The position numbers and the translations under genes were made by a program. From IMG/VR virus record IMGVR_UViG_3300044568_004476, positions 1-64,000 of that record: 64,000 bases of DNA; one strand, written 5' to 3'. The notes beneath the pieces are model-generated. The model worked only from the letters and a program-made list of their open reading frames with translations, ran no database searches and had not been told where the DNA came from. Source of the DNA: a virus. Shown in pieces: positions 8,797 to 55,082 of the stretch (position 1 is its first letter; every line of letters starts with the position of its first letter).

Positions 8797-10407
8797 ATGG
8801 CCGGTTTTGTAGATAATAATGATCCATCCCAATCCCCTGTTATACAGAGGATTAGAGAATCTGTGAGAAAGCTAAGTACTTTTGGTATGAAGTATGATGA
8901 CATGGTCATTAGAAATTCCCAAGCAGTTGGTGTAACCGAAGCTGCGTTCTTAAATAAGAATAAGGCTAATATAGAAGACGAAAGCATGCTTTGGACGTTA
9001 GCAAAGCAAGATATCACTACAAGACAATTCATTTCTTACTTTGACAAGGACTATAAGGGAAAAAGAGATTATCTGAGAAAGTTTTCACTTAACCCAGAAA
9101 TAGAATGGGTCCTTGATACGATATGTGACGAGGCTATATCTTATGATCCTGCTAACTTTTTTGCATACCCAGACTTTATTGATATAACAAACATCAACGA
9201 GAAGCTTAAAGATGACTTATATGAGAATTACAAAAAGCTTTATGATATATGGGGATTCAGTGACGATATAACTGGCTGGCAATATTTCAGACAGTTTTTA
9301 GTTGATGGGTTTTTATGCTTTGAGATAATTTATGATAATGACGGTAAATATATTGTAGGATTTAAAGAATTGGATTCGGTTACTCTTGTTCCGTCTGTGG
9401 AGAAACAAATAGATGGCACCTTTATTAATACTTGGACACAATTTCCGCAGGATCCTAAAAGAAGAAGAGTACTTTACGATCCGCAGATAATTTATATCTC
9501 ATATGCTAAAGGAAATTCAATATCTAGAGTAAGCTACATCGAGAGATTGATCAGACCTTATAATATTCTAAGAATTATTGAATACACTAGAATTATATGG
9601 TCAGTAATGAATTCGTCATTCAGATTAAAAATGACAGTTCCTATTGGTACTAAATCACCTCAAAAAGGTATGCAAACATTAGGAGAACTAATGAGCATCT
9701 ATAAGGAGGACATTCAGCTAAATGATGATAGTGGAGAATTATTAGTAGACGGTAAACCTAAGATACAGTTCTATAAGAACTATCTAATGCCTTCCGGAGT
9801 TAATGGGACACCTACTATTGAACCTGTCAATACTGAAGGTCCTAACCTGAATGACCCTGCTCCTCTATCGTATTTCTTTGATAAATTTGTACAAGAATCT
9901 AAAGTTCCGCCTTCGAGATTTCATACCCCAGATGGAGGTAACACTTCCCCGTATTCTAACGGTGCAGAAGGATTAGACAAAGAGGAAATAAAATTTTCTA
10001 AATTTGTTGAAAGATTAAGATCAATATTCCAGGAGATATTAACTAAGCCACTTTGGATTCAAATGGCTAAGAAATATACTCATTTGGAAAAAGACTTCAT
10101 GTTTAAAAGTCAATTAGGGCTTGACTATTTTTCTGATAATCCATTTAAGATCAATCAAGAAATGGACGTGATAAACAAAAGAAAAGAATCTGTTACTGCT
10201 ATGTCTGGATTAGTTGGGGACGAAGAAAAACCATATTTCTCTACTGCATTTCTTATTGAAACATTCCTTGGTATGTCTAGACAAGATATCATTGCAAACA
10301 AGGAAGCCATGGAGAGAAAAGAGAAGGAAAAGAAAAAGGCGGAGAAGAAAGAAGGCGGAGAGAAGGGTGAAGAAGGGGAAGAAAAAGCACCAGAGGTAAC
10401 ATTATAA
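8797..10407 (+). CDS. 20: Portal protein, gp20-like, copy A
   Basis: 536 residues, close to T4 gp20 (524). Conserved gp20-type blocks include NPEIEWVLDTICDEAI (101-116), GWQYFRQFLVDGFLCFEIIYD, IIYISYAKGN and LRSIFQEILTKPLW. Portal proteins form the twelve-subunit ring at one capsid vertex through which DNA enters and to which the neck attaches. The C-terminus is a low-complexity Glu/Lys/Gly tail ending KAPEVTL. A second homologue of nearly the same length follows after 9 bases and has the same last seven residues; about half of the aligned positions are identical by eye. Phages normally encode a single portal protein. Confidence 0.85.
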   Translation: MAGFVDNNDPSQSPVIQRIRESVRKLSTFGMKYDDMVIRNSQAVGVTEAAFLNKNKANIEDESMLWTLAKQDITTRQFISYFDKDYKGKRDYLRKFSLNPEIEWVLDTICDEAISYDPANFFAYPDFIDITNINEKLKDDLYENYKKLYDIWGFSDDITGWQYFRQFLVDGFLCFEIIYDNDGKYIVGFKELDSVTLVPSVEKQIDGTFINTWTQFPQDPKRRRVLYDPQIIYISYAKGNSISRVSYIERLIRPYNILRIIEYTRIIWSVMNSSFRLKMTVPIGTKSPQKGMQTLGELMSIYKEDIQLNDDSGELLVDGKPKIQFYKNYLMPSGVNGTPTIEPVNTEGPNLNDPAPLSYFFDKFVQESKVPPSRFHTPDGGNTSPYSNGAEGLDKEEIKFSKFVERLRSIFQEILTKPLWIQMAKKYTHLEKDFMFKSQLGLDYFSDNPFKINQEMDVINKRKESVTAMSGLVGDEEKPYFSTAFLIETFLGMSRQDIIANKEAMERKEKEKKKAEKKEGGEKGEEGEEKAPEVTL

Positions 10408-10416
10408 AAATAAGAA

Positions 10417-12030
10417 ATGGCAGGATTTTTAGATTTTTTAAGACCTAACGAGTCAGCTCTAGGCAACATAATAAGGAACCTCGGGAAGGTTTCCAAGTTT
10501 GGTATGCAGTATGACGATATGGTCGTTAGAAACTCTCAGGCTATAGGTAAAACTGAAGGAGCTTTCTCTCAGCAAGGAACTGGGTTTACTCAGGATGATG
10601 CTTTCTATTGGACAGCTTCCTATCAGGATACTAAGGTAAGAAAATATATTGCTTATTTTGATAAGGATTATATAGAAAAAAGAAACTTCTTAAGAAAATT
10701 TTCACTAAATGGAGAAATTGAATTTATACTTGATACTATTACAGACGAATCTATCACATACGACGATAGAAATTATTTTGCTAATCCTTCTTTCGTTAAT
10801 CTAGATATTAAGGAAAAGGTAAAGGATAAGATAGCTGATCATTATAACAGGATTTATAATGTTTTTGGCTTTCAGAATTCCATACTAGGATGGCAGTATT
10901 TTAAACAATTCCTAATCGATGGATTTCTTGCTTTTGAGATTATCTACGATAACAAGGGTAAGGAGATAATAGGGTTCAAAGAATTGGATGCTTCTTCACT
11001 TCAGCCAGCGGTTGAAAAAATTGGGGAAAACGAATATCAGCAATTCTGGATTCAATACCCTAAGAATCCGCAGATGACTAGAAAGCTTACAAATGAGCAG
11101 ATCGTCTATATTTCTTATGCTAAAGGAAACAGCGTATCTAGGGTTAGCTATATCGAGAGATTAGTTAGATCGTATAACATACTTAGAATCATGGAAAATT
11201 CCAGGATAATCTGGAATGTTATGAATGCTTCATATAGACTTAAATTTATCATACCCACGGGAAGTCAATCTCCACAAAAGGCTATGCAAACTTTAGGACA
11301 GCTAATGTCAAACTATAAGGAAGATATTGCAATTAATGACGCATCAGGGGAATTAACAGTTAATGGGAGGCCTAAGGTTCAGTTTTATAAAAACTACCTA
11401 TTTCCTGAACAGAATGGGCAATCCCCTCAAATCGAGTCTCTTAATCCAAGCGGACCTGATTTCAACGTTATGGATAATGTTCTTTATTTCTATAACAAGC
11501 TTAAAATGGATTCAAAGATACCTTATGCTAGGTTTGCTTCTAGAGCTTCTGGACCTGTTAATTATCAGACAGGCATAGATCAATTGGAAAGAGATGAAAT
11601 AAGATTTGAGAAATTCCTAAGAAGATTAAGGTCAATATTCCAGGAGATACTGGTAAAACCTTTATACATTCAGATGTGTTTAGATTTTCCTGAACTATCT
11701 AGAGATAGAAGCTTTAAAACAAATCTTGGCTTAGATTTTCATAGGGAGAGCGAATTCGAAGAGATGGTTCAACTAACCAATTTTTCTAAAAGAAGTGAAT
11801 TCATTAAAGGCCTAGGAGAGCTTAAGGTTAAAGCTGGTGAAGAGGAAAAAGCATATTTTGATAATGATTACCTTATACAAAGATATCTTGGATTAACTCC
11901 AGACCAATTAGCAGCTAACGAATCTTACAAGAAAAAAGAGGCAAAAGAAGCTCCTAAAGCTGAAGGTGCTGAAGGTGAAGCTGCTCCAGCTGAAGGTGAG
12001 GAAGGGAAAGCACCAGAGGTAACTTTATAA
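10417..12030 (+). CDS. 20: Portal protein, gp20-like, copy B
   Basis: 537 residues, a full-length homologue of the upstream portal gene. It keeps the same blocks (GEIEFILDTITDESIT, GWQYFKQFLIDGFLAFEIIYD, IVYISYAKGNSVSRVSYIERL, LRSIFQEILVKPLYIQM) with no frame damage. The copies differ most at the N-terminus, in the region after YKNYL that should correspond to the wing or crown, and in the low-complexity tail before the shared KAPEVTL end. Both copies keep the core, so both are likely functional. They may build a mixed ring or be used at different stages. No terminator follows; a 221-base intergenic region does. Confidence 0.85.
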   Translation: MAGFLDFLRPNESALGNIIRNLGKVSKFGMQYDDMVVRNSQAIGKTEGAFSQQGTGFTQDDAFYWTASYQDTKVRKYIAYFDKDYIEKRNFLRKFSLNGEIEFILDTITDESITYDDRNYFANPSFVNLDIKEKVKDKIADHYNRIYNVFGFQNSILGWQYFKQFLIDGFLAFEIIYDNKGKEIIGFKELDASSLQPAVEKIGENEYQQFWIQYPKNPQMTRKLTNEQIVYISYAKGNSVSRVSYIERLVRSYNILRIMENSRIIWNVMNASYRLKFIIPTGSQSPQKAMQTLGQLMSNYKEDIAINDASGELTVNGRPKVQFYKNYLFPEQNGQSPQIESLNPSGPDFNVMDNVLYFYNKLKMDSKIPYARFASRASGPVNYQTGIDQLERDEIRFEKFLRRLRSIFQEILVKPLYIQMCLDFPELSRDRSFKTNLGLDFHRESEFEEMVQLTNFSKRSEFIKGLGELKVKAGEEEKAYFDNDYLIQRYLGLTPDQLAANESYKKKEAKEAPKAEGAEGEAAPAEGEEGKAPEVTL

Positions 12031-26836: not shown

Positions 26837-28330
26837 ATGAAGAATAAAAAAATTGTCCAATATGCATTAGACGGAGAATTGATAAGGATACATGATTCCA
26901 TTGTCGATGCTATGAATAGCGTTGGATTAAAGAGTCATTCCGGTATAATTGGATGTTGTAAATTTAAGCCTGGTGCTAATAGTACTGCTGGATATCAATG
27001 GAGATATTATGATGTGAACAATGTATTCGGTAATATAGGATCCGCAACCAAACGTGGCGATACATATAAACAAAAATATGGTAGCGGAACGGAAGGTGCT
27101 ACTGTTATTAACGACAAGAAGGTAAACACAATGATGTCAAAATTCGGGGTTTCCCACCCTATGCTAGATACTGATACTAAAAAAAAGTACGAAAATTCTT
27201 GTATGATAAAATATGGAGAAATAAATCCTGCCAAGAGTGATATCGTGAGAATGAAAATATCAAAAACTGAAAGAGCTAAAAAAACTAACAGTTATATAAA
27301 ATTGCTTGACAGTAGTATGAAATTTTGCGGGATTTCCGATGATGATATTCTTACGCTAATGGATAATAAATGCTTACATACTTTTGATATAAATCGTCAA
27401 TTACTTACTGTTAGAGGAAGAAACTCTCATATTATTTGCACATTATGCAATCCTGTTGATTCCAACCAAAAATCAGAAATAGAAAGGTTTTTATTTGATT
27501 TGCTTTCCGAAAATATCAGTGAAATATATCCTAATGTCAAAGGTCTAGTACCTGGCAGATATGAAGTTGATATATTTTTAAAATCATTTAATATCGGGAT
27601 CGAAGTGAATGGTATTAAATTCCATAGTGAGGAATATGGAAAATTTAAAAACCATCATCTTTCTAAGACTGAAATATTTGGTAATAATGGAATTTTTTTA
27701 TACCATTTTTTTGATGATGAGGTATCCGAAAAATCCGGTATAATCAGATCTATGATATTTAATAGAATTGGATTAAGTAAAAAGATATATGCAAGAAATT
27801 GCAGGATCTCTAGAATAAGTAATATTGAATCAATTGAATTTCTATCCAATAATCATATGCAAGGTCCAGTTAATTCAGAGTATTGCTATGGTTTGTATCA
27901 CAAGGATATTCTGGTTTCTGTTATGACTTTTTGCAAACCAAGAAAATATACCAACTCAAAATCATATGTTGGACATTTTGAATTACTTAGATTCTGCAAT
28001 ATTATAAACGTTTCTGTGGTTGGCGGTGCATCGAGACTACTTAAAATGTTCATCAAAGAAATGAAACCAATTAAAATAGTATCGTATGCAAATAGAAGAT
28101 GGAGCGATGGGAATTTATACCGAAAGCTTGGCTTCAGTTTTGATGGATTTACTGAACCCGGTTACTATTTTTTTTACAAAAATAAAAGAATCAATCGAAC
28201 AAAATTAAGAAGAAAAGAATTAATAAAACTTGGGTGTGACGATAAACTATCAACCGCTGATATGTTAATTTATATAGGAGCATATAAAATATGGGACTGC
28301 GGAAATTATAAATTTTCACTAAGACCATGA
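26837..28330 (+). CDS. Free-standing homing endonuclease (NUMOD1 + Vsr-like nuclease + GNAT-like C-terminus)
   Basis: 497 residues. Residues 5-58 look like a NUMOD1 DNA-binding module (IVQYALDGELIRIHDSIVDA and a final GYQWRYY). 90-140 hold two short DNA-binding repeats with SKFGVSHPM and IKYGEINPAKS. A Cys/His cluster (C179, H181, C201, C204) may bind zinc. The nuclease core is SEIERFLFDLL, then YEVDIFLKSFNIGIEVNG and FHSE (Asp245, Glu256, His263), the Vsr/EDxHD-like form found in phage homing enzymes. The C-terminal 170 residues resemble the acetyltransferase-like domain often attached to these enzymes. It sits alone between the capsid terminator and the next late promoter, with more A/T-rich codons than its neighbours, as expected for an inserted selfish gene. 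Confidence 0.85.
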   Translation: MKNKKIVQYALDGELIRIHDSIVDAMNSVGLKSHSGIIGCCKFKPGANSTAGYQWRYYDVNNVFGNIGSATKRGDTYKQKYGSGTEGATVINDKKVNTMMSKFGVSHPMLDTDTKKKYENSCMIKYGEINPAKSDIVRMKISKTERAKKTNSYIKLLDSSMKFCGISDDDILTLMDNKCLHTFDINRQLLTVRGRNSHIICTLCNPVDSNQKSEIERFLFDLLSENISEIYPNVKGLVPGRYEVDIFLKSFNIGIEVNGIKFHSEEYGKFKNHHLSKTEIFGNNGIFLYHFFDDEVSEKSGIIRSMIFNRIGLSKKIYARNCRISRISNIESIEFLSNNHMQGPVNSEYCYGLYHKDILVSVMTFCKPRKYTNSKSYVGHFELLRFCNIINVSVVGGASRLLKMFIKEMKPIKIVSYANRRWSDGNLYRKLGFSFDGFTEPGYYFFYKNKRINRTKLRRKELIKLGCDDKLSTADMLIYIGAYKIWDCGNYKFSLRP

Positions 28331-33334: not shown

Positions 33335-33895
33335 ATGATATACGTATTTGAAGGTCCAAGAAATTCTGGTAAAACATTTTTATCTGAGCATATCTCAGAA
33401 TATTTTCATATTCCAAGATTTCAGTTTAAGTTTGCTAATTTCTTTAGTGATCTAAATCTAAAAAGTGAGGATAGCAAAGAAGCCCATGCATTTTCATTAG
33501 GTAAAGAGTTTATGCTTATGCAGTTAGCAAAGGACATACCACAGGGATCATTCATACACGACAGAGGGATATTAACTGTCTTAGTGTGGGGATTGCTCGA
33601 GGGTAGAATAACTGAGGAAGAAGCTAGAAATCAAATAGAAATATTAAAGAAATATTCTCTTCTCCACGAGATCACTATCATTTATATAAATGGAGAAAAT
33701 CCAGACAAGTCAGATAGAAGTAAAGATCAGTGGGATCATATAGATGGCGAAACTAGAGAAAGAGACACTTATGAGAAAGTAATAATAATGTTTCAAGAAG
33801 CTGGACTACATAAGATATGGGCATTTACAAATAAATTCGACGACCAATCAGTGAGCAATATAGACTCAATGTTTGAAGATATACTTTTTAATTAA
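33335..33895 (+). CDS. P-loop nucleotide kinase (thymidylate kinase-like)
   Basis: 186 residues from ATG 33335; a TTG 45 bases upstream lies inside the promoter and is rejected. The P-loop is FEGPRNSGKTFLSEH (5-19). A HDRG motif near 78-81 is like the DRY/DRS motif of dNMP kinases, and an Arg/Asp-rich lid follows near SDRSKDQWDHIDGETRERD. The thymidylate kinase-like branch is the best fit, but the lid and base-binding residues differ, so the substrate is uncertain. It is followed after 4 bases by asparagine synthetase; the two share one host-type promoter. Confidence 0.68.
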   Translation: MIYVFEGPRNSGKTFLSEHISEYFHIPRFQFKFANFFSDLNLKSEDSKEAHAFSLGKEFMLMQLAKDIPQGSFIHDRGILTVLVWGLLEGRITEEEARNQIEILKKYSLLHEITIIYINGENPDKSDRSKDQWDHIDGETRERDTYEKVIIMFQEAGLHKIWAFTNKFDDQSVSNIDSMFEDILFN

Positions 33896-33899
33896 AAAC

Positions 33900-35306
33900 A
33901 TGTGCGGAATACTATTAACAACTAGAGCGGATAAACATCCAGAAATTTTAAATACGATAAAACACAGAGGGATAGAAAGATCCGTAGAGGAACTTGATAA
34001 GGTTACCTTATGTCATCATAGATTACCAATTCAGACCTCCGATGGAGATGAATGGAATCAGCCAAGAGAAGTTTCTCCTGGTGTGTATTTGATGTTCAAT
34101 GGAGAAATATTTAATTATAATAGAACCCTGTTCTCCTCTGATATTGAATACCTATGCAGCTTATTCAGTGGGTATAAAGGTGGTAATTTAGAATTCTTTG
34201 CTGCAACATATTCCCCCCATATACAAACCTGGGATGGATTTTGGGCAGTTGTAATATACGACTCAAATAAAGGAAGTGTGATAGCATTCACAGATCCTCT
34301 AGGAAAAAAATGCCTTTATAAAAACGACCTGGGAGAGATTTGTTCGGAGATTAAGGGTCTTACCACAGTACTGGATGAGTTAGACGAAACCTATATAAGT
34401 GCTGTTAGAAAATGGGGTTATAATAGGGACAACAGAACACCGATTAAATCGATTAAAAGAATCCTTCCTAACACCTTTTATTTTTATAATATAGCATCAC
34501 CCCTATTTGAACAAACGTATGGCCCTTACTATAGAACTTGGGAATCCCCGATATCCGAACTAGAAGGTGCGGATTACGAAACCCATATGAGTTGGCTATG
34601 GGATAAGATGTTCGAGAGCGTAAGAAATAGACTTGTTTCAAAGAACTACCCAATATCGCTTTTGGTATCAGGAGGTCTTGATTCTTCAATTATAGCAGGA
34701 GTATTAAAAGAAATGAATGCCAAGGTTACTTGGTTCACTATAGAGAATGGTGAAACCCCTTTTGTAAACGATTTAAGCGCCCATTTAAGCACTCCTGTCA
34801 ATTTTCTAGACTATAGTATGGATTCAAGTAAGAACGCTCTTATATACACGCTATGGAATGAAACGCCGGTAGATTTAGGCTCAGTGATCCCGCAGTATCA
34901 TTTATTCGAGGCAGTTAAGAAAGAATCTGGTTATAGGATAGTTTTAAGTGGCGACGGATCTGATGAGCTATTTGGAGGGTATTCAAGAATACATGAATAT
35001 GACTCACAGCAGTCTGATGTATTTGAAGAACTCCCTTATTATCACTTACCCCGATTGGATAAGATGTCAATGGCACACACTTTGGAATTAAGAAGCCCAT
35101 TCCTAAATCTAGATATAGTTAGATTCGCCTTACACCTACCCATCGAATGGAGAACTGACAAAAAGATACTAAAGGACACGTTTGGTCCTATGATTCCTGA
35201 TTCTATCGTAAACAGAAAAAAAGAAGCTTTAAAGAATCCTGAAATTAAGGAGGATAAGCTTAAATATAGACAAAAAGCGGTGGATCTTTTCTTGGATGAA
35301 ATATAA
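33900..35306 (+). CDS. asnB: Glutamine-hydrolysing asparagine synthetase
   Basis: 468 residues from ATG 33900, chosen because the catalytic Cys must follow the initiator Met (MCGILL). The N-terminal Ntn glutaminase domain has HRGIE (22-26), HHRLPI (39-44) and MFNGEIFNY (65-73). The synthetase domain has the pyrophosphate loop VSGGLDSS (256-263), LSGDGSDELFGGY (349-361) and RLDKMSMAHTLELRSPFL (385-402). All catalytic parts look intact. It is shorter than bacterial AsnB (about 550), by C-terminal trimming. The product makes Asn, or may amidate another carboxylate. It lies in a host-type promoter cassette within the late head genes. Confidence 0.92.
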   Translation: MCGILLTTRADKHPEILNTIKHRGIERSVEELDKVTLCHHRLPIQTSDGDEWNQPREVSPGVYLMFNGEIFNYNRTLFSSDIEYLCSLFSGYKGGNLEFFAATYSPHIQTWDGFWAVVIYDSNKGSVIAFTDPLGKKCLYKNDLGEICSEIKGLTTVLDELDETYISAVRKWGYNRDNRTPIKSIKRILPNTFYFYNIASPLFEQTYGPYYRTWESPISELEGADYETHMSWLWDKMFESVRNRLVSKNYPISLLVSGGLDSSIIAGVLKEMNAKVTWFTIENGETPFVNDLSAHLSTPVNFLDYSMDSSKNALIYTLWNETPVDLGSVIPQYHLFEAVKKESGYRIVLSGDGSDELFGGYSRIHEYDSQQSDVFEELPYYHLPRLDKMSMAHTLELRSPFLNLDIVRFALHLPIEWRTDKKILKDTFGPMIPDSIVNRKKEALKNPEIKEDKLKYRQKAVDLFLDEI

Positions 35307-44908: not shown

Positions 44909-47242
44909 ATGTCATTAGGAGCAACAGATAAGTTAAGAAGTCTATTTTTAAAAGGCTTTAAGCTATCCAAACAAGGAAAGTACGAGGATCCAACATATCT
45001 TGGATTTAAAATAGTGATAGATTTTGGTACTCTCCCAGTAAGAGATGACGACGGTCTTCCCCCTAGTCCTCTTTTTAAAGAAGAGTCATATATTCCTAGT
45101 GGATTTAGTTCATCTAATCCCTTTGGACAACCCCAGTATTCATTCAGAAGCACACCAAACGGAGCAATCAATTTCTATTCAGCAACATCATATTTGAGAG
45201 AAAGAGAATCCGGATTTCCCAGAGGTGGAAAAAGATCTGATATGCTTATTCAGTTTAAAAACAATCTGACTGATTTGCTTAATAATTACCCCTGGTTTTT
45301 TCAAACAATATCTGGATTAGACCAATTACCACTTGTAGCAAGAAAGGGATTTGCTGTTGAAACCGATGGTGAATTCAGTTCACAGAGAACTGCAGGTAAG
45401 GCTTTAGAATTTACCACATTGGAGTCATTAAATTTGAGAATGACTGCTCTTGCAGATTTATACAACCAGGCAACTTTTGATTATGATAACATGAGAGAAT
45501 TAGTACCGAGAAATCTTAGAAAATTTACTATGTATATTTTCGTTTCTGAGATACGTAATTTTTTCAAGACATCTAGACTCATCGGATCTTCTGCTGCTTT
45601 AACAGCGATAGACAATTTAACATCCATGCTTGGATCTGGTAACAACCCAGGTACAAACCTAGGAAATGTTGCAGGAGAACAAAATAGCGAATATAACGGA
45701 GGATCTTCTAATACAAATCCTGCTAGTGCTTTTAATTCATTTGTCGGTAATGTTTTAGATAGAGGCGGAGTAGATAATGATTTATCACTTCTTAGAAACC
45801 AGCAGGATCAGTCAGGCATAAAGCCGGTTATTGTTTTTGAATGTAGAAACTGCGAATTTGATTTTAGCGAAAGTACTGCAATACCAAATGAGATTAGTGC
45901 AGGTTCAGATACTGCAACTCCAGTAGCTCAGAGTTTTAGAATCTTAGTAGGTCGGGTTAGGATGAGAACACAATACCCTAACATCAGGCAAGACGGCAAG
46001 CCACTAATTCTTGGAGATAGCTGGGACGGAGCTAGATCATCAGTTCAGAAAACCCCTAATAATCTAGGCAGTGATCTTCTTTCTCTAGGTGGGGAGCTAT
46101 TAACTAACTTTTTAAGCAATTCACTAAATGATCTTATTAATGAAGGTGTTGCAAACTTTATAAAACCTAATGTTGCAGGATTAGACTCATTAGCTCTTGG
46201 AAATATCTATAGTTTAAATCCTTCCCAAATTTTGGGTAATCTATCATTTAATACAGGTCAGCAATTTCTTGATCAGTTAGGTAACGTTAATGCTGGATTT
46301 AAGAAAACAGAGCTTCCGAATCCACAAACAGCAGGTTTAGGTGGTCCGCCACAAAGGGTCTATAAAAAAACATCGGGAGACGTATACACTAAAGTACCTG
46401 GGCAAGATTTAGGGGTTAGTAGCGTTTCTGGAATTCAAGGTAGAGTTTATCCAGCTCCTGGTGGAGACTCTTACCCGGGTGTACCTGGTAAAGATTTAGG
46501 TGTGCCTGGAAGGGTTTACGTTGAACCTTCAGGCGATGTTTACAATGAAGTACCAGGAAAAGATCTAGGCGTGCCAGGAAGGGTTTATCCAGTTCCCGTT
46601 GGCGACGTTTATGCCACAGTACCTGGACCAGATTTAGGAGCACCTGATAGGGTATATCCAGTTCCCGTTGGCGACGTTTATGCCACAGTACCTGGACCAG
46701 ATTTAGGAGCACCTGATAGAGTATATCCTGACCCAGGTGGTGACGTTTATACCAACGTTCCCGGAACAGATTTAGGAGCACCCGATAGGGTATATACTGC
46801 CCCGGGCGGTGACGTTTATACCAACGTTCCTGGATCGGATTTAGGAGTCCCGGGAAGAGTATACCCTCAAATATCTGAAGACGTATATCCTTCTAATCAA
46901 AATTCTATACCTCTTCCTGAGCAAAAGGTTTACCCCGATTTAGTAAAACGCGCGGATCAAACAAGCATAGAAGCAGGACCTGTTTATACGCCAACACAGA
47001 AGATTTCTTCTAATGGTGAACTTAGGGATCAAGTAAACTCATTCACAACAAAACCTAATCCAGTTTACCAAAGATCTGAAATGGAAAGTATAAAATCAAG
47101 AGGCGATATAGGAAGGGTTTATCCAAATACAAGTGGGGATTTTATAATTGAAAAACCTTTGGATTTAGGAAATTTAAAACCAAAAGATAAGTATAATATT
47201 AGTACAGGCGGGATGAATCCAAGTCCTGAAAAATTTGAATAA
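44909..47242 (+). CDS. Baseplate protein with 23-residue tandem repeats
   Basis: 777 residues. The first 370 are a globular tail-type protein with FVSEIRNFFKTSRL and VIVFECRNCEFDFSEST. A helical region of Ser/Asn/Leu follows. Residues about 482-650 are seven or more tandem units of the type GRVYPxPxGDVYxxVPGxDLGxP. The C-terminal part has variants of the same GRVYP phrase. Two units are identical at DNA level over 64 bases, showing recent unit duplication. The extended Pro/Gly units probably form a flexible or beta-solenoid arm. Hub protein and spike genes flank it, so it is a baseplate component. Confidence 0.68.
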   Translation: MSLGATDKLRSLFLKGFKLSKQGKYEDPTYLGFKIVIDFGTLPVRDDDGLPPSPLFKEESYIPSGFSSSNPFGQPQYSFRSTPNGAINFYSATSYLRERESGFPRGGKRSDMLIQFKNNLTDLLNNYPWFFQTISGLDQLPLVARKGFAVETDGEFSSQRTAGKALEFTTLESLNLRMTALADLYNQATFDYDNMRELVPRNLRKFTMYIFVSEIRNFFKTSRLIGSSAALTAIDNLTSMLGSGNNPGTNLGNVAGEQNSEYNGGSSNTNPASAFNSFVGNVLDRGGVDNDLSLLRNQQDQSGIKPVIVFECRNCEFDFSESTAIPNEISAGSDTATPVAQSFRILVGRVRMRTQYPNIRQDGKPLILGDSWDGARSSVQKTPNNLGSDLLSLGGELLTNFLSNSLNDLINEGVANFIKPNVAGLDSLALGNIYSLNPSQILGNLSFNTGQQFLDQLGNVNAGFKKTELPNPQTAGLGGPPQRVYKKTSGDVYTKVPGQDLGVSSVSGIQGRVYPAPGGDSYPGVPGKDLGVPGRVYVEPSGDVYNEVPGKDLGVPGRVYPVPVGDVYATVPGPDLGAPDRVYPVPVGDVYATVPGPDLGAPDRVYPDPGGDVYTNVPGTDLGAPDRVYTAPGGDVYTNVPGSDLGVPGRVYPQISEDVYPSNQNSIPLPEQKVYPDLVKRADQTSIEAGPVYTPTQKISSNGELRDQVNSFTTKPNPVYQRSEMESIKSRGDIGRVYPNTSGDFIIEKPLDLGNLKPKDKYNISTGGMNPSPEKFE
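46352..46870 (+). repeat. Tandem 69-base coding repeat
   Basis: Seven to eight units of 69 bases encode the 23-residue phrase. Units starting near 46587 and 46656 are identical over 64 bases; others differ at up to a third of positions. Confidence 0.92.
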
Positions 47243-47244
47243 TT

Positions 47245-47946
47245 ATGCCGAGTGAAAAAACATACCTTGGTAAGGTAGTTGATATTAAAGATCCGCTTTA
47301 CCAGGGAAGAGCTAAAATAGAAGTCTTCGGAGTATTTGACGGTCTTCCTTCAGAGGATTTACCGTGGGCTGAGCAGATTGCAGGTTTATCCTTTGGCGGA
47401 AATTTCGGCGGGGGTAACATAACTATACCTAGACTAGGCTCTGTCGTAGCAGTTCATTTTGAAGATAATAATTATTACAAAATGAATTATCACTATATTA
47501 AGGAAATCTCTAAGGATCTTATGACAGAACTCAAGGAAGATAATTCATACGAGGGTACACAAGCTTTAATATATGATTCGGAAGCTCAGCCAGGGACCCT
47601 TAAGATGATTTATACAAAAAAGAAAGGTTTGGTATTTCAACTTGGTGATGCAACTATTCAGCTTGATACACAGAACGCAGGAACGAATAAGGAGAAACTA
47701 CGTATAGTTTTAAAAATGAATGATGACGAGATTAGAATGGAAAAACAAGGAATAAAGCAAAAGGTTATAGTAAATTCAAAAAATATAGAGCTTGGCGAAG
47801 ACGCTATGGAAAAACTAGTTTTGGGAAATAAATTTCTGCTATTATTTAATTCGCATACACATCCAACAGGGGTAGGTCCTTCTGGAGTACCTGATGTTCC
47901 AATGTCAGATCCTCTTCATTTAAGTCAAGTATCTAAAACTAAATAG
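47245..47946 (+). CDS. 5: Central spike / gp5-gpV-like baseplate protein
   Basis: 233 residues. The N-terminal OB-fold (YLGKVVDIKDPLYQGRAKIE at 6-25, GNITIPRLGSVVAVHFEDN) is typical of the spike oligomerisation domain of gp5 and gpV. It is followed by beta-rich repeats (TIQLDT, EIRMEKQ, VIVNSKNIELG) that should make the beta-helical needle, and by LLLFNSHTHPTGVGPSGVP, a C-terminal phrase common in phage spikes. Unlike T4 gp5 there is no lysozyme domain. It would cap the tail and pierce the outer membrane. Confidence 0.78.
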   Translation: MPSEKTYLGKVVDIKDPLYQGRAKIEVFGVFDGLPSEDLPWAEQIAGLSFGGNFGGGNITIPRLGSVVAVHFEDNNYYKMNYHYIKEISKDLMTELKEDNSYEGTQALIYDSEAQPGTLKMIYTKKKGLVFQLGDATIQLDTQNAGTNKEKLRIVLKMNDDEIRMEKQGIKQKVIVNSKNIELGEDAMEKLVLGNKFLLLFNSHTHPTGVGPSGVPDVPMSDPLHLSQVSKTK

Positions 47947-49489: not shown

Positions 49490-50680
49490 ATGATTAATTT
49501 ATCCTTAACTAAAACCCATAACCCAGAAGATTTTAACTGGGAAATAAAGAATGGCAGAAAGCCAAACACTAAACTAGAAAGGATTCCTAGAGGATCAAAA
49601 ATTTATTGTCATGAGCCTTACGCTCAGGAACTTTTAGACGCATATAATAATTATTTTAGTGACATCCCTAAAACTGCAAGTTTATCTAAAGATCTTCAAG
49701 AGGGTAACGTTTACCCATGTAAGATCGTAAGTGTTACTGAGAAAGAGGCACTAGCACAGACAAGCACAGGACAAACAATTTATATAGATCTTAGAAAGGA
49801 AAGAAAAGATGCTGATAAATTAAAAATAACAGGAGTATATTTCAATACAGGAGATTTATTACAGGCTAAGATTAGAAAAAGCGGAGAAGTATATATAGGA
49901 TCTGTTGTTGAATACTATATACACAGTCTTAGAATCGAATTATTTGAACAAATTAAAAAAGAATCCAGCGCATACAGGGTTAAAATTGAAAGCATTAATA
50001 AAGGTGGTTACATTGTAGATCTATCTGGGATTAAATGTTTCTTACCTGGATCTTTAGCGGCTGCCAACAGAATTACCGATTTTGAATCCTATATAGGAAA
50101 GGAATTACATGTGATGATTGAGGGGTACATTGAACATAAAGACATATTTATTGTTTCTTACAAAAAATACCTTAATAAAATTATGGAAAGCAAAATTCAA
50201 GAATTGGATCTTACTAAGAAATATAAAGGGTATGTTACAGGAACAAGCGATTTTGGAGTGTTTGTTGAATGGGAAGAGGTTTACACAGGGCTTATTCATA
50301 AAACCGAATTCAGCGAAGATAATTCAATTACAGGGGTAAATCCAGGTGATGAGATTGAATTCTACGTTAAAGAAATTAAAGACAACAACAGATTAACTTT
50401 AACTCTAGAGAAACCTTTAGAGAGAAATGTTATAATACATGATCTTGATAAACAGATCAAGGACGGAACATGTGATCCGATCGAGGCAAGAATTAAACAC
50501 AAGAGAAAGAACGGAATACTTATTGATCTTGTAGAATTCGGTCTTATGGCTCTTATCCCTCAGGAAAGAATTGGTAAAAACACCAAAAATCTTAAACCTG
50601 GAGATGACCTACTAGTTACGGTTTACGAAGTTGAACCATCTAGCGGAAAAATTTTCGCAGAACCGGTAAATGACCGATAA
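49490..50680 (+). CDS. Ribosomal protein S1-like multi-domain RNA-binding protein
   Basis: 396 residues with about four S1/OB repeats: about 70-140 (EGNVYPCKIVSVTEKEALAQ), 160-228 (RVKIESINKGGYIVDLSGIK and FLPGS), 243-310 (YKGYVTGTSDFGVFVEWEEV and GLIHKTE, then VKEIKDNNRLTLTL), and 325-396 (IEARIKHKRKNGILIDLVEF and ALIPQERIG). The third is the most typical S1 domain. Host S1 has six domains and brings mRNA to the ribosome; Bacteroidota rely little on Shine-Dalgarno pairing. The protein could favour phage mRNA, protect RNA or alter ribosomes. It overlaps the next gene by 11 bases in an operon with its own late-type promoter. Confidence 0.85.
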   Translation: MINLSLTKTHNPEDFNWEIKNGRKPNTKLERIPRGSKIYCHEPYAQELLDAYNNYFSDIPKTASLSKDLQEGNVYPCKIVSVTEKEALAQTSTGQTIYIDLRKERKDADKLKITGVYFNTGDLLQAKIRKSGEVYIGSVVEYYIHSLRIELFEQIKKESSAYRVKIESINKGGYIVDLSGIKCFLPGSLAAANRITDFESYIGKELHVMIEGYIEHKDIFIVSYKKYLNKIMESKIQELDLTKKYKGYVTGTSDFGVFVEWEEVYTGLIHKTEFSEDNSITGVNPGDEIEFYVKEIKDNNRLTLTLEKPLERNVIIHDLDKQIKDGTCDPIEARIKHKRKNGILIDLVEFGLMALIPQERIGKNTKNLKPGDDLLVTVYEVEPSSGKIFAEPVNDR

Positions 50681-52076
50681 TAGAACACATTTTGATAAGC
50701 TTAATGCTCTTAGCTCATCTGTAATAGGATTCGAGTTTGAATTTTATACTAATATGCTAAAGGGCAGGGCAGCTGAATCCCTTTCTAAGCTAATCAACAA
50801 AAAAGTAGTGGTATCCGAAAGATACCACTCTAATATTATTGTGGATGCCAGCACATGTAAGCTAGAACCTGATTATTCAGGCGGGAGTAAAATGATGGAG
50901 TTCATCACTGGACCATTACCTTATAACGAAGCTATTACCATATTAATTAAAGTCCTTAATTGGATAGATGAAAATGGGTGGACTACAGATAGATGCGCAT
51001 TTCAATTTTCTGTTAGCTACGACAAGTTCAGAAAAGACGTTAAGGATAAAATAGAAAATTTAGACAAACTTAAATTTATATTAGGCCTTGATGAGAATTT
51101 TATTTATTCAAAATTTGGTGATAGATCTAAAAACGTTTACGCTAAATCTATAAAAAGAGTAGTTCCTAGAAATAGATTTTCTATGGTTGAGAATTTAACT
51201 ACTATTGACCCTAGAATGTTTAAAGTTCCTGAGGACAAATACTATGGCGTAAACTTCACGAAAATACCAAAGGGATATTTGGAATTTAGATATCTAGGAA
51301 ACAGAGATTATCAAAAGAAAACCAAGGATATAAGAGATATTATAGATTATGTGATTCTTTATCTTTATGACTTGCTTAGTCATAGAATATCAGGTTATTC
51401 AAAAGAGGATCTTGCTAAGCTTCAGAGTATGATGAATCAATATAGCAAGGTTGTTAGATCTTTTAGTGATCCTGATTTCTTCTTTAGAAATTACCCAGAT
51501 TTTCATATCTTCGTAGATCTTAAAGGATGGGACGAAAATATAAAGACTTACTGGTCAGTTATAAGAGATAAAATATTTGATATAATTGTTGAAGGTAATG
51601 TTTCCTCCGGATATTTTAATTATGATAGCACCACAGGTAGATGTCAATTAAAAGACGCTAGAAGTAGAGAAGCTTTAGAACTTAAAGATATAGATCTTAT
51701 ACTTTGTGACATAAAGAATGGTGTAATTAAAAACTGTAATATCTATAGTTCTAAGATAAAAAAATCCTCAATAGAGGAATGCTATATAGTTAATGATACC
51801 ACAGTTATATCTTCAAAAATTAAAGATTGCGTTGTTGATTTCGGTAACGAACTTGAGGATTGCTTTATTGATTGTGAAGGTAAAAGTATTAACTGCAAGA
51901 TAAAAGATGGGGTTTTAAGAGCTGGAGAAATTGGAGAAAATGCTGAGGTAAGTAAGGAGACCTTAAAAGTTAAAGGCTGGGAGGATTTCAGAAAAGAAAG
52001 ATTTGTTACCGACAAGAGATTAAAGGATCTAAATGATAGATACAATAATCCAAGATTTGGAAACATGAACTTTTAA
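50670..52076 (+). CDS. Amidoligase-like protein fused to a beta-helix
   Basis: 468 residues. The N-terminal half has the glutamine-synthetase-like amidoligase pattern: IGFEFEFY (19-26), KLEPDYSGGSKMMEFITGPL (64-83), CAFQFSVS (109-116), and YLEFRYLGNRDY (203-214), supplying the acidic residues that bind metal and ATP. Such enzymes ligate amines or amino acids to carboxylates of peptides. Residues about 340-430 are hexapeptide-like turns (IKNGVIKNCNIYSSKIKKSS) that should make a small beta-helix, a fold common in phage structural proteins. Co-transcribed with the S1-like gene and a virion gene. The target is unknown. Confidence 0.68.
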   Translation: MTDNRTHFDKLNALSSSVIGFEFEFYTNMLKGRAAESLSKLINKKVVVSERYHSNIIVDASTCKLEPDYSGGSKMMEFITGPLPYNEAITILIKVLNWIDENGWTTDRCAFQFSVSYDKFRKDVKDKIENLDKLKFILGLDENFIYSKFGDRSKNVYAKSIKRVVPRNRFSMVENLTTIDPRMFKVPEDKYYGVNFTKIPKGYLEFRYLGNRDYQKKTKDIRDIIDYVILYLYDLLSHRISGYSKEDLAKLQSMMNQYSKVVRSFSDPDFFFRNYPDFHIFVDLKGWDENIKTYWSVIRDKIFDIIVEGNVSSGYFNYDSTTGRCQLKDARSREALELKDIDLILCDIKNGVIKNCNIYSSKIKKSSIEECYIVNDTTVISSKIKDCVVDFGNELEDCFIDCEGKSINCKIKDGVLRAGEIGENAEVSKETLKVKGWEDFRKERFVTDKRLKDLNDRYNNPRFGNMNF

Positions 52077-52093: not shown

Positions 52094-52870
52094 ATGACCG
52101 AAGAAGAATTAATACAAGAAATAGAAGACGCACTTTCTTTTAGCTGTGCCCTTCCGTATAATCTAAATCAGCAGGAAACAAAAAGAATAATCAAAAGAGC
52201 CAAAGCATGGTTTTTTGATAATTATCAATATGCTGTTGAGGATAGAGTTTTTATTTTACAAAATGAAATATTTAGACATCCTGAATTTAGAGCAACCCGA
52301 CAAATAAAATTACCAGAATCTATTATTAGCGTATATGACGTTAGAGAAGTTGGTGGCTCTGGTATATCAGGTAATCCAGATAGGGATTTTAGTGATTCTA
52401 AATTACTTGGATCCGAATTATTACTTTCTCCTTTTGTTGGGGATAACTTAGTTTACCGTACTGTTATGTACTCATATTTCGATTTAGCTAAAGCATATCT
52501 ATTAGAGACTTTTGCTTTTAAATGGAATAAAAATAGCAAAAAATTAACCATTTCGGGTAGGGATCCGGGTAGATCTGGTAAGGGACAGCTTGCTCAAGGA
52601 TTTGGGTCTGGCGGTACCGATGTATCTGTTAGATGCTTTGTTGCACTAAATGATGATGATCTTTTTGCAGATGAGCTTTTTGTTAGATATTGCATCGCTA
52701 AATCTAAAATAGCATTAGCAAACATGCTTTCTGTGTTTACCTATAATTTACCAGGTGGGGTTCAAATAAATGCTTCTGATATCAGAACTACGGGGGAAAC
52801 TGAATTACAAGAAGTTATGGATATGATTAACGGTGAAAATACTCCTAGTTACTTCCTTCAATGGAATTAA
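52094..52870 (+). CDS. Virion structural protein, neck or baseplate type
   Basis: 258 residues. Begins with helices MTEEELIQEIEDALSFSCAL, followed by a WFFDNYQYAVEDRVFIL segment and beta-rich parts with an RQIKLPESIISVYDVREVG phrase. This N-terminal helix plus beta domain is common in neck and connector proteins of T4-like phages, but the family was not firmly identified. Last gene of the S1/amidoligase operon, before a strong terminator and the wedge genes. Confidence 0.5.
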   Translation: MTEEELIQEIEDALSFSCALPYNLNQQETKRIIKRAKAWFFDNYQYAVEDRVFILQNEIFRHPEFRATRQIKLPESIISVYDVREVGGSGISGNPDRDFSDSKLLGSELLLSPFVGDNLVYRTVMYSYFDLAKAYLLETFAFKWNKNSKKLTISGRDPGRSGKGQLAQGFGSGGTDVSVRCFVALNDDDLFADELFVRYCIAKSKIALANMLSVFTYNLPGGVQINASDIRTTGETELQEVMDMINGENTPSYFLQWN

Positions 52871-52976: not shown

Positions 52977-53348
52977 ATGAGAGAGATTTATAACAGGGAT
53001 CCACTAGACCCAAGCTACAACCCGTTCCAGATCGAAACAACCGATCCGGTAGAAATTTGTATTGGCCAATTAAAAATGATGCTTCTTACTAATAAAGGAG
53101 AGGTACTTGGCGACACTAAATTTGGGCTTAATCTAGAGGAACTAATATTTAGTTTAAATTTATCTGAATCTAGCATAAGAAAAGAGATGGATCTATTTTT
53201 AAAAAACTATATACCTCTTTTTAGCAAACTTGGAGGATCATACGATCTTAAATTTTATGTTGGAACAGAAAGAGACATAGCAACAATAGATTTTAGAATA
53301 CCAGTAGACGGTGGATTAAGTCCTCTAGTCACACTAAGAATAACCTAA
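52977..53348 (+). CDS. 25: Baseplate wedge protein, gp25-like
   Basis: 123 residues (T4 gp25: 132). The core TNKGEVLGDTKFGLNLEELI (38-57) is the family signature, with an EPR-like place taken by LGD and FGLNLEEL; the C-terminal strand FRIPVDGGLSPLVTLRI is typical. gp25 ties the wedge to the inner tube end of the sheath. It precedes gp6-like, as in many contractile systems. Confidence 0.88.
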   Translation: MREIYNRDPLDPSYNPFQIETTDPVEICIGQLKMMLLTNKGEVLGDTKFGLNLEELIFSLNLSESSIRKEMDLFLKNYIPLFSKLGGSYDLKFYVGTERDIATIDFRIPVDGGLSPLVTLRIT

Positions 53349-53357
53349 TATATAGAA

Positions 53358-55082
53358 ATGAATATTTTTAAGAAGAATAACATCCTGATTAACGGTCTAT
53401 TAAATGACACGTTTTCTTTCCTGCAGGACACGTATAATCAAACGACAAATCTGTTTACTGTAGCATCAGCTTGGGGACAGATTCTTTTTGTTTTGCAAAA
53501 CCTTTCTCAGATGATTCTATATTTTATAGAGGATTCTATAACTGAGTTAAATATAGAGCAAGCAACTAGAGATTATTCGGTTAGAAGTTTAGCTCGAATA
53601 GCTGGATATGATCCGGGCAGAGCAAGTACTGCTCAAGGAGAGGTAACATTATCTTGGAATAGAAGACAATCAGATATAGGTGGAAGCGCAGTTATAATCA
53701 ACAACTACGCACAAATCAGATGTCAGGAAAATGGTAAATTATACTCTTTAGTTTTCGGATCATCAAGGGTAACAATTCAGCTTGGAGGTAGTCCAAGCCC
53801 TCTTAGAGTTAAAGTAGCTCAAGGTGATTTTATTAGCTCTGTTGTAACAGGAACAGGAAACGCTTTACAGAGTTTCAACCTTCCATCTTCATCAGGATCT
53901 TATTTGGATCAATTCTATGTTGATGTTTACGTCAATGAGGAAAAATGGAGAAGGTATGATTCACTCTATGATATACCTTTAAACGGAAAAGGCTTTATGG
54001 TTAGAACAGGGATTCAAGAAGGTCTGGATGTTTATTTTGGTAATTCTAATTTTGGTATGGTGCCTCAAAGAGGATCAAGAATAAGAATAGAATATCTTCA
54101 AACATCTGGAGGATCAGGTAACGCTATTTCAACTAAGGAAAAACCTTTAACGTATAAATTTGTTTCTAGCGGAACTGATTTATTTGGTTCTGAAGTAGAT
54201 CTAAACAACTATATCGATGCTCTTAATTCTATAGACCCTTCTTTTGGTACTAACCCAGAAACAACAAATTTAATAAGATTAGTTGCTCCAAAGACAAGTA
54301 GATCTTTCGTTTTTGCTAATGCACAAAATTACGAGATTTTTCTAAATAAACTTGGGATATTCTCACAAATTCAAGCATTTTCAACATTCGATGATGATTA
54401 CTTAGATGATGATAACGTTATCTATATTTTCTTGGTTCCTGATATAACATTAAACATATCTTCTAATGAGGATTATTTCGATATTCCGGTGTCTGACTTT
54501 TTACTTAGTACTAATCAGAAAACTAAGATAATAAATCTTATTGAGGATTCTGGGTCTATGATAGCAACAACTGTTGTTAGAATAGTAGAACCACAAATTA
54601 AAAGATACGTGGCAAACGTGGTGATTACTATGTTTGAAGGATATGATCCTGAGACGATAAGACAAGCTATAAGAAAGAAAGTTTCCGAGTATATGTTAAA
54701 TCTAAAAAGAAGAGATTTCATTCCTAAATCTGATATAATAGCTTTGGTTGAATCGGTAGAGGGTGTAGATTCTGTTTCATTCTATTTTGTTGGGGAAGCA
54801 AACGAAAAGAATCAAACTTTGCTTAGGAGTTTAACCAACGTTTCCGATATGCAGCTACAGCAACAGGTTGGGATTAATGAATTTGGCGATATTATAATAG
54901 GTAGAAATGACCTTGTTGTTTTGAGAGGTGGATGGACAGATAGAAATGGTACAAATTATCAGCAGGGTATAGTTCAGGGTAAACCCGGAGCTCTTAATGT
55001 AAGTATTGCTAAAGTAATACCTGTGAATTTCAACATGTCTCTAAATGCTGAAATGAAATCTCAACTTATAAACAATAACTAA
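53358..55082 (+). CDS. 6: Baseplate wedge protein, gp6/J-like
   Basis: 574 residues (T4 gp6: 660). The N-terminal helices (YFIEDSITELNIEQATRDYS, then SLARIAGYDPGRASTAQGEV) and the C-terminal LKRRDFIPKSDIIALVESVE are as in J-like/gp6 wedge proteins, which form the dimers encircling the baseplate inner ring. The order gp25, gp6 fits. Shares one base with the next gene (TAATG). Confidence 0.82.
   Translation: MNIFKKNNILINGLLNDTFSFLQDTYNQTTNLFTVASAWGQILFVLQNLSQMILYFIEDSITELNIEQATRDYSVRSLARIAGYDPGRASTAQGEVTLSWNRRQSDIGGSAVIINNYAQIRCQENGKLYSLVFGSSRVTIQLGGSPSPLRVKVAQGDFISSVVTGTGNALQSFNLPSSSGSYLDQFYVDVYVNEEKWRRYDSLYDIPLNGKGFMVRTGIQEGLDVYFGNSNFGMVPQRGSRIRIEYLQTSGGSGNAISTKEKPLTYKFVSSGTDLFGSEVDLNNYIDALNSIDPSFGTNPETTNLIRLVAPKTSRSFVFANAQNYEIFLNKLGIFSQIQAFSTFDDDYLDDDNVIYIFLVPDITLNISSNEDYFDIPVSDFLLSTNQKTKIINLIEDSGSMIATTVVRIVEPQIKRYVANVVITMFEGYDPETIRQAIRKKVSEYMLNLKRRDFIPKSDIIALVESVEGVDSVSFYFVGEANEKNQTLLRSLTNVSDMQLQQQVGINEFGDIIIGRNDLVVLRGGWTDRNGTNYQQGIVQGKPGALNVSIAKVIPVNFNMSLNAEMKSQLINNN

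Follow-up and report, generated by a model that had tools for sequence, protein, structure and literature searches.

The window analysed here, a stretch of 64,000 nucleotides, comes from a virus contig of 71,423 bases, and most of the genome therefore probably lies outside view. Within a tail and baseplate operon (Table 1) it holds an intact open reading frame with an ATG start, opposite which the other strand is full of stops; this is a real gene, strongly conserved, and its product joins a glutamine synthetase (GS)-like domain to a short beta-solenoid. The end of the S1-domain gene overlaps the start of the ligase gene by 11 bases and the next gene begins 17 bases past its stop, while promoter- and terminator-like sites around it were no commoner than in shuffled sequence. 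Co-transcription with the S1-like gene and a virion gene, as put forward in the original prediction, is therefore plausible. The location in a virion operon was borne out, as the tail and baseplate genes are syntenic in all close relatives. Several relatives at 33-41% identity (L041, L203, L205, L206 and L118) retain the gene order of this operon; in other distant clades a tail gene lies within 8 kb of the ligase in 46 of the 57 loci having 6 kb on both sides, against a chance level estimated to be well below half.

Table 1. The ligase gene, its domains and other genes discussed in the text (positions are those of the window unless a locus is named).
Feature	Position	Strand	Evidence or remark
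GS-like amidoligase with C-terminal pentapeptide-repeat solenoid	50670..52076	+	468 aa; whole ORF including stop
GS-like catalytic domain, residues 7-242	50688..51395	+	VIA-align to 4bax; invariant residues
Catalytic-domain motifs			E22xE24, D68..E77, Q112, E142, R152, K190YYGVN195, E205xR207
Helical linker, residues ~243-324	51396..51641	+	DSSP of AF2 model
Pentapeptide-repeat-type right-handed beta-solenoid, residues ~325-432	51642..51965	+	PDB profile matches; PF13599; AF2 model
AsnB-like asparagine synthetase, class II glutamine amidotransferase domain	33873..35306	+	PF00733 E 6e-41, PF13537, PF13522
Baseplate hub / gp5-like (Vgr/hub)	47245..47946	+	phrog_430 E 1.4e-15; upstream; 47/47 close relatives
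S1-domain protein	49490..50680	+	PF00575 E 8e-18; upstream neighbour
Head-tail adaptor-like	52094..52870	+	phrog_211 E 2.2e-7; directly downstream; 54/54 close relatives
gp25-like baseplate wedge	52977..53348	+	phrog_120 E 0.0018; 54/54 close relatives
gp6-like baseplate wedge	53358..55082	+	phrog_219 E 1.6e-33; 54/54 close relatives
RimK-type ligase	L239:4804-6267; L240:4164-5642; L241:4078-5535	+; +; -

Several other features of the structural genes were noted. The S1-domain gene sits within the tail operon of most close relatives. A tail-operon protein (44909-47242) carries tandem repeats of ~20 residues (VYPxPxGDVYxxVPGxDLGxPxR) in its C-terminal half. Two adjacent genes, at 8797-10407 and 10417-12030, are portal-like, the first matching Portal_T4 with an E value of 8e-58; they look like tandem portal paralogues, the second member being clearly alike as judged by eye. 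A probable homing-endonuclease-like gene (26837-28330), also recognized by eye, follows immediately after the gene for the Gp23-type major capsid protein.

A full-length AlphaFold2 model of the ligase, for which an alignment of 32 relatives served as input, reached a pLDDT of 85.8. Its residues 7-242 superimposed on the GS catalytic domain with a Z score of 11.9 and an rmsd of 3.5 over 185 residues (VIA-align, best match 4bax), so that the GS-like fold proposed for the N-terminal half was indeed found. The 50 VIA-align matches listed were all GS or GS-like enzymes, and Foldseek agreed, with GS matches at an E value of 2e-4; the match lists of both programs leave room for other families. Against BFVD, the top Foldseek match was a homologue without annotation (E value 5e-41), followed by annotated phage amidoligases, that of Agrobacterium phage Atu_ph07 included, with E values down to 1.7e-13. 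The aligned GS chains start at GS residue ~103-144, opposite ligase residue ~7, with nothing preceding, and hence the N-terminal beta-grasp domain of GS is missing. The ligase thus shares with GlnA the fold of the catalytic domain, the acidic metal-ligand positions and the ExR motif, but differs from it in lacking the beta-grasp domain and in having a pentapeptide-type solenoid added.

Profile searches placed the protein less readily. The window ligase scored 13.7 bits against the Pfam family Amidoligase_2 (PF12224), under the cut-off of 22 bits. Three orthologues, whose ORFs are 74-77% identical to it, passed this cut-off (G005, 26.1 bits; G006, 24.8; G002, 22.8), and PF12224 matches were obtained in 12 of 32 relatives (best 5.6e-7). 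PHROGs held no family for the window ligase, a PDB sequence search with the single protein gave no match, and Pfam gave neither a glutamine synthetase family nor a RimK match. An hhalign comparison with amidoligases of the tf/LUZ24 branch (LUZ24/phiEco32-type) was weak (probability 4.2%, E value 0.0098) and paired the later motifs correctly. Like the Amidoligase_2 proteins of phages (tf gp21, LUZ24 gp18, Salinivibrio phage CW02 and Atu_ph07), the ligase is phage-borne and has a GS-like fold with the motifs in the same order; unlike them, it has [H/Q]-x-[S/N] in place of H-x-H and SGG in place of GSLR. We therefore describe the window protein as a divergent GS-like amidoligase and not as a canonical member of Amidoligase_2, because its close clade lacks the conserved His of the HxH strand that the family mostly has. 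That it belongs to the GS-like amidoligase class of enzymes is, in our judgement, highly probable.

Relatives of the ligase are encoded by 474 IMG/VR stretches. Among 50,697 phage records only six had matches, all of them uncultured and 462-735 kb in length. The family is known from huge phages (contigs or genomes up to 735 kb) and was not found in cultured phages. All four genomes of 634-735 kb that were tested carry the gene. By size these correspond to the four largest complete phage genomes described in 2020, those of 634, 636, 642 and 735 kb, which PMC7162821 assigns to the Mahaphage clade and for which it predicts hosts among the Bacteroidetes; the word "amidoligase" does not occur in that paper. 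The 642-kb genome (W05, LR756502.1) has a weak second Amidoligase_2 match on the minus strand at 628361-628549, in a 324-aa ORF (E value 0.01). A cellular origin of the family was considered and rejected: the sole match among genome_contigs, a contig binned with a Deltaproteobacteria MAG (L118), bears the same phage tail genes and is therefore a phage contig.

The neighbourhood of the ligase differs from that of the phage amidoligases known so far. The amidoligase of phage tf belongs to an early cluster, in which it adjoins a GATase, with a COOH-NH2 ligase and an ATP-grasp enzyme close by; companions of the same kinds occur in other phages whose neighbouring genes are annotated. Passages in PMC10580990 and PMC11318856, citing Iyer 2009, hold that phiEco32-type amidoligases may modify the host wall or surface. 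The ligase could likewise be directed at the host, acting on a wall peptide, a surface molecule or a metabolite, for example against superinfection, and the glutamine-dependent AsnB-like enzyme of the close clade could supply the ammonia. All 14 close-clade records have the AsnB-like gene, which in the window lies in the structural region ~15 kb from the ligase; none of the 16 distant records has a match above cut-off. It encodes a second amide-forming enzyme and a possible partner of the ligase; as an obligatory ammonia source it was rejected, being absent from distant genomes, complete ones among them. However, amidoligases of the phiEco32/LUZ24 type sit in islands with a COOH-NH2 ligase, a GATase or an ATP-grasp enzyme and apart from structural genes, whereas this ligase is found only in huge phages and in a tail operon, and no gene of these three kinds adjoins it. 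Among 19 huge-phage records there was no match to the COOH-NH2 ligase family PF14395 (4 of 4 controls were positive), and the sole GATase_6 gene detected was the close-clade AsnB. RimK-type ATP-grasp genes are present in the close clade and in the 735-kb genome, none of them beside the ligase. A host-directed role is thus unlikely, although it is the alternative that we take most seriously.

The four motifs on which the amidoligase assignment had originally been based, GFEFEFY (residues 20-26), KLEPDYSGG (64-72), FQFSVS (111-116) and EFRYLGNRDY (205-214), are present and are conserved beyond chance. E22 and E24 are kept in 140 of 140 relatives reaching that far (of 142 distinct relatives, two have N-terminally cut ORFs), and D68, S70, E77, S116, E142, R152, K190, G193, N195, E205 and R207 are invariant in all 142. 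A loss of acidic metal residues in relatives, which would have counted against a ligase, was looked for at E22, E24, D68, E77, E205 and R207, and none had occurred. The order of the motifs (ExE, D..S..E, Hx, E, R, KYxxxN, ExR) is that of bona fide phage amidoligases. Ligase residues could be paired with those of the canonical phage amidoligases (A4) as follows: E22xE24 with E32xE34, D68..E77 with D53..E61, Q112 with H98, S114 with H100, E142 with E122, R152 with R133, Y191 with Y175, N195 with N179 and E205xR207 with E190xR192. This pairing was made by eye from two alignments, and the low-probability hhalign result agrees with it for the later motifs; the paired residues correspond to the GS metal ligands and the ATP/substrate arginine. 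The FQFSVS motif is present as claimed, but the His that is invariant in GS and known amidoligases is Gln112 here. Position 112 is His in 77 and Gln in 65 of the 142 relatives, with the window protein and every close relative in the Gln set, and the second His of the HxH pair of known amidoligases is Ser or Asn throughout the family. The close clade therefore has a different metal site, which might affect activity. In L043, a distant member, H53 and E66 have both been lost.

These substitutions bear on a second alternative, in which a GS fold without catalysis serves as a scaffold, a chaperone or a minor tail part and the solenoid does the binding. Gln112 in the close clade would be consistent with such a protein, as would the structural-operon location, and GS-like folds do bind large partners. 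However, a scaffold would need neither acidic positions and an ExR motif that stay invariant across 142 sequences down to ~29% identity, nor an enzyme half more constrained than the rest. Among close relatives, dN/dS was 0.031 for residues 17-240, 0.117 for the middle of the protein and 0.19 for the solenoid. Such constraint on the enzyme half, together with the invariant motifs, is the pattern expected of an enzyme, and we regard a pseudoenzyme, too, as unlikely.

A link to translation had been suggested from the S1-like neighbour and from the precedent of RimK, with the ligase tagging a ribosomal protein and the S1 protein as its partner. The S1-domain gene overlaps the ligase directly and adjoins it in 43 of 47 close relatives, but only in 5 of 76 distant ones; in the other 4 close and 71 distant relatives the ligase is retained with no S1 gene beside it. 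S1 as an obligatory functional partner was rejected on these counts and, with the neighbour dispensable, the case for a ribosomal target is weak. RimK (PF08443) is similar by analogy only, as an ATP-dependent ligase acting on a protein: its fold is ATP-grasp and that of the ligase GS-like, and the long genomes of the close clade encode a true RimK-family ligase as a separate gene elsewhere. This part of the original prediction was not supported, and we consider a translation modifier very improbable.

The RimK-type ATP-grasp ligase (485-495 aa) occurs in five of five long close-clade genomes tested. Its C-terminal extension looks, by eye, to be of RimB/retropepsin type. The protein begins with xFxSFLNE[AS]K, similar to the capsid-targeting and prohead-protease signal of T4; it is possibly a virion-packaged, injected ribosome-modifying enzyme. 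Many proteins at L041, L040, L043, L175 and other huge-phage loci begin like MKYILEYEEFLLE or MKKYGEFINE, with an LxE or IxE cleavage site, a motif that we take to be close to the T4 capsid-targeting sequence. In L041, 6 of 27 genes have such a start, against 0.4% of internal segments. The motif could reveal the set of proteins injected by huge phages. Capsid targeting of the GS-like ligase itself was rejected, since its N-terminus lacks the motif.

The short beta-helix reported at the C-terminus is real and is fused to the enzyme. A profile search gave PDB matches to pentapeptide proteins for this region, and the C-terminal 129 residues, modelled separately, formed a beta-solenoid with a pLDDT of 94.8, whose best VIA rows were pentapeptide-type solenoids (Z score 10.1, rmsd 2.6, 118 residues). 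Pentapeptide_4 (PF13599) was matched in 21 of 32 relatives; the Pfam cut-off of 38 bits was not reached by any relative checked (best 30.6 bits, L184), and the window protein had no match. By profile and fold matches the solenoid is right-handed and of the quadrilateral type, like AlbG, MfpA and Qnr (PF13599/PF00805), but it is ~110 residues long, is fused to an enzyme and has a near-neutral charge (15 basic and 20 acidic residues). Qnr-like DNA mimicry is unsupported given this charge, and a likeness to SV2 in the Foldseek rows, consisting of solenoid look-alikes with low TM-scores, was taken as a fold coincidence. Free amino acids are the substrates of GS, the closest solved fold, and of many amidoligases, but the solenoid fusion and the fixed baseplate synteny suggest a protein partner. 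That the ligase produces a soluble metabolite used in the infected cell and has nothing to do with the virion, its tail-operon place reflecting late expression only, is the least probable of the alternatives.

The fold, motif conservation, purifying selection, domain architecture and operon context of the ligase are computed results. Among the targets originally named, a virion protein best fits the genomic context and is the putative substrate; a host-wall target is without partner genes and a translational one without a fixed S1. As the gene is kept in the tail/baseplate operon and would be made late, the substrate is most likely to be among the proteins of the tail, the baseplate or tail assembly; nearness to tail genes is, however, no proof of a tail substrate. 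Our preferred reading is that of an active, late-made GS-like ligase modifying a tail, baseplate or assembly protein docked on the solenoid, and we hold it tentatively, at a little under even chances. Given activity, a virion or assembly substrate has about an even chance. Mg-ATP bound by the N-terminal domain would be used to phosphorylate a carboxylate, and the resulting acyl-phosphate would react with an amine (an amino acid, a polyamine, ammonia or a lysine side chain) to give an amide or isopeptide bond. The solenoid, as a rigid docking arm, would bring a large partner to the active site, and the outcome may be amidation of a side chain, attachment of an amino acid or peptide as a tag, or covalent cross-linking during assembly. 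Catalysis, nucleotide use, substrate and timing are in this account what we infer. A fuller version is doubtful as a whole. In it, huge phages would have a GS-type ligase dedicated to their own tail or baseplate proteins and encoded within the tail operon; steered by its pentapeptide arm, the enzyme would modify or cross-link these proteins covalently, an ATP-driven step in tail assembly of a kind undescribed in phages.

In summary, a ligase kept across hundreds of huge-phage contigs combines a GS-like enzyme with a solenoid, a fusion that would offer a clear substrate-recognition module. Genomic context divides phage amidoligases in two, those of early host-directed islands and the tail-operon form. 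Huge phages that carry the ligase probably modify a protein, most likely their own, by means as yet undescribed. If the preferred reading is true, the making of amide bonds by enzymes while virions are assembled would add a step that is new to phage biology.
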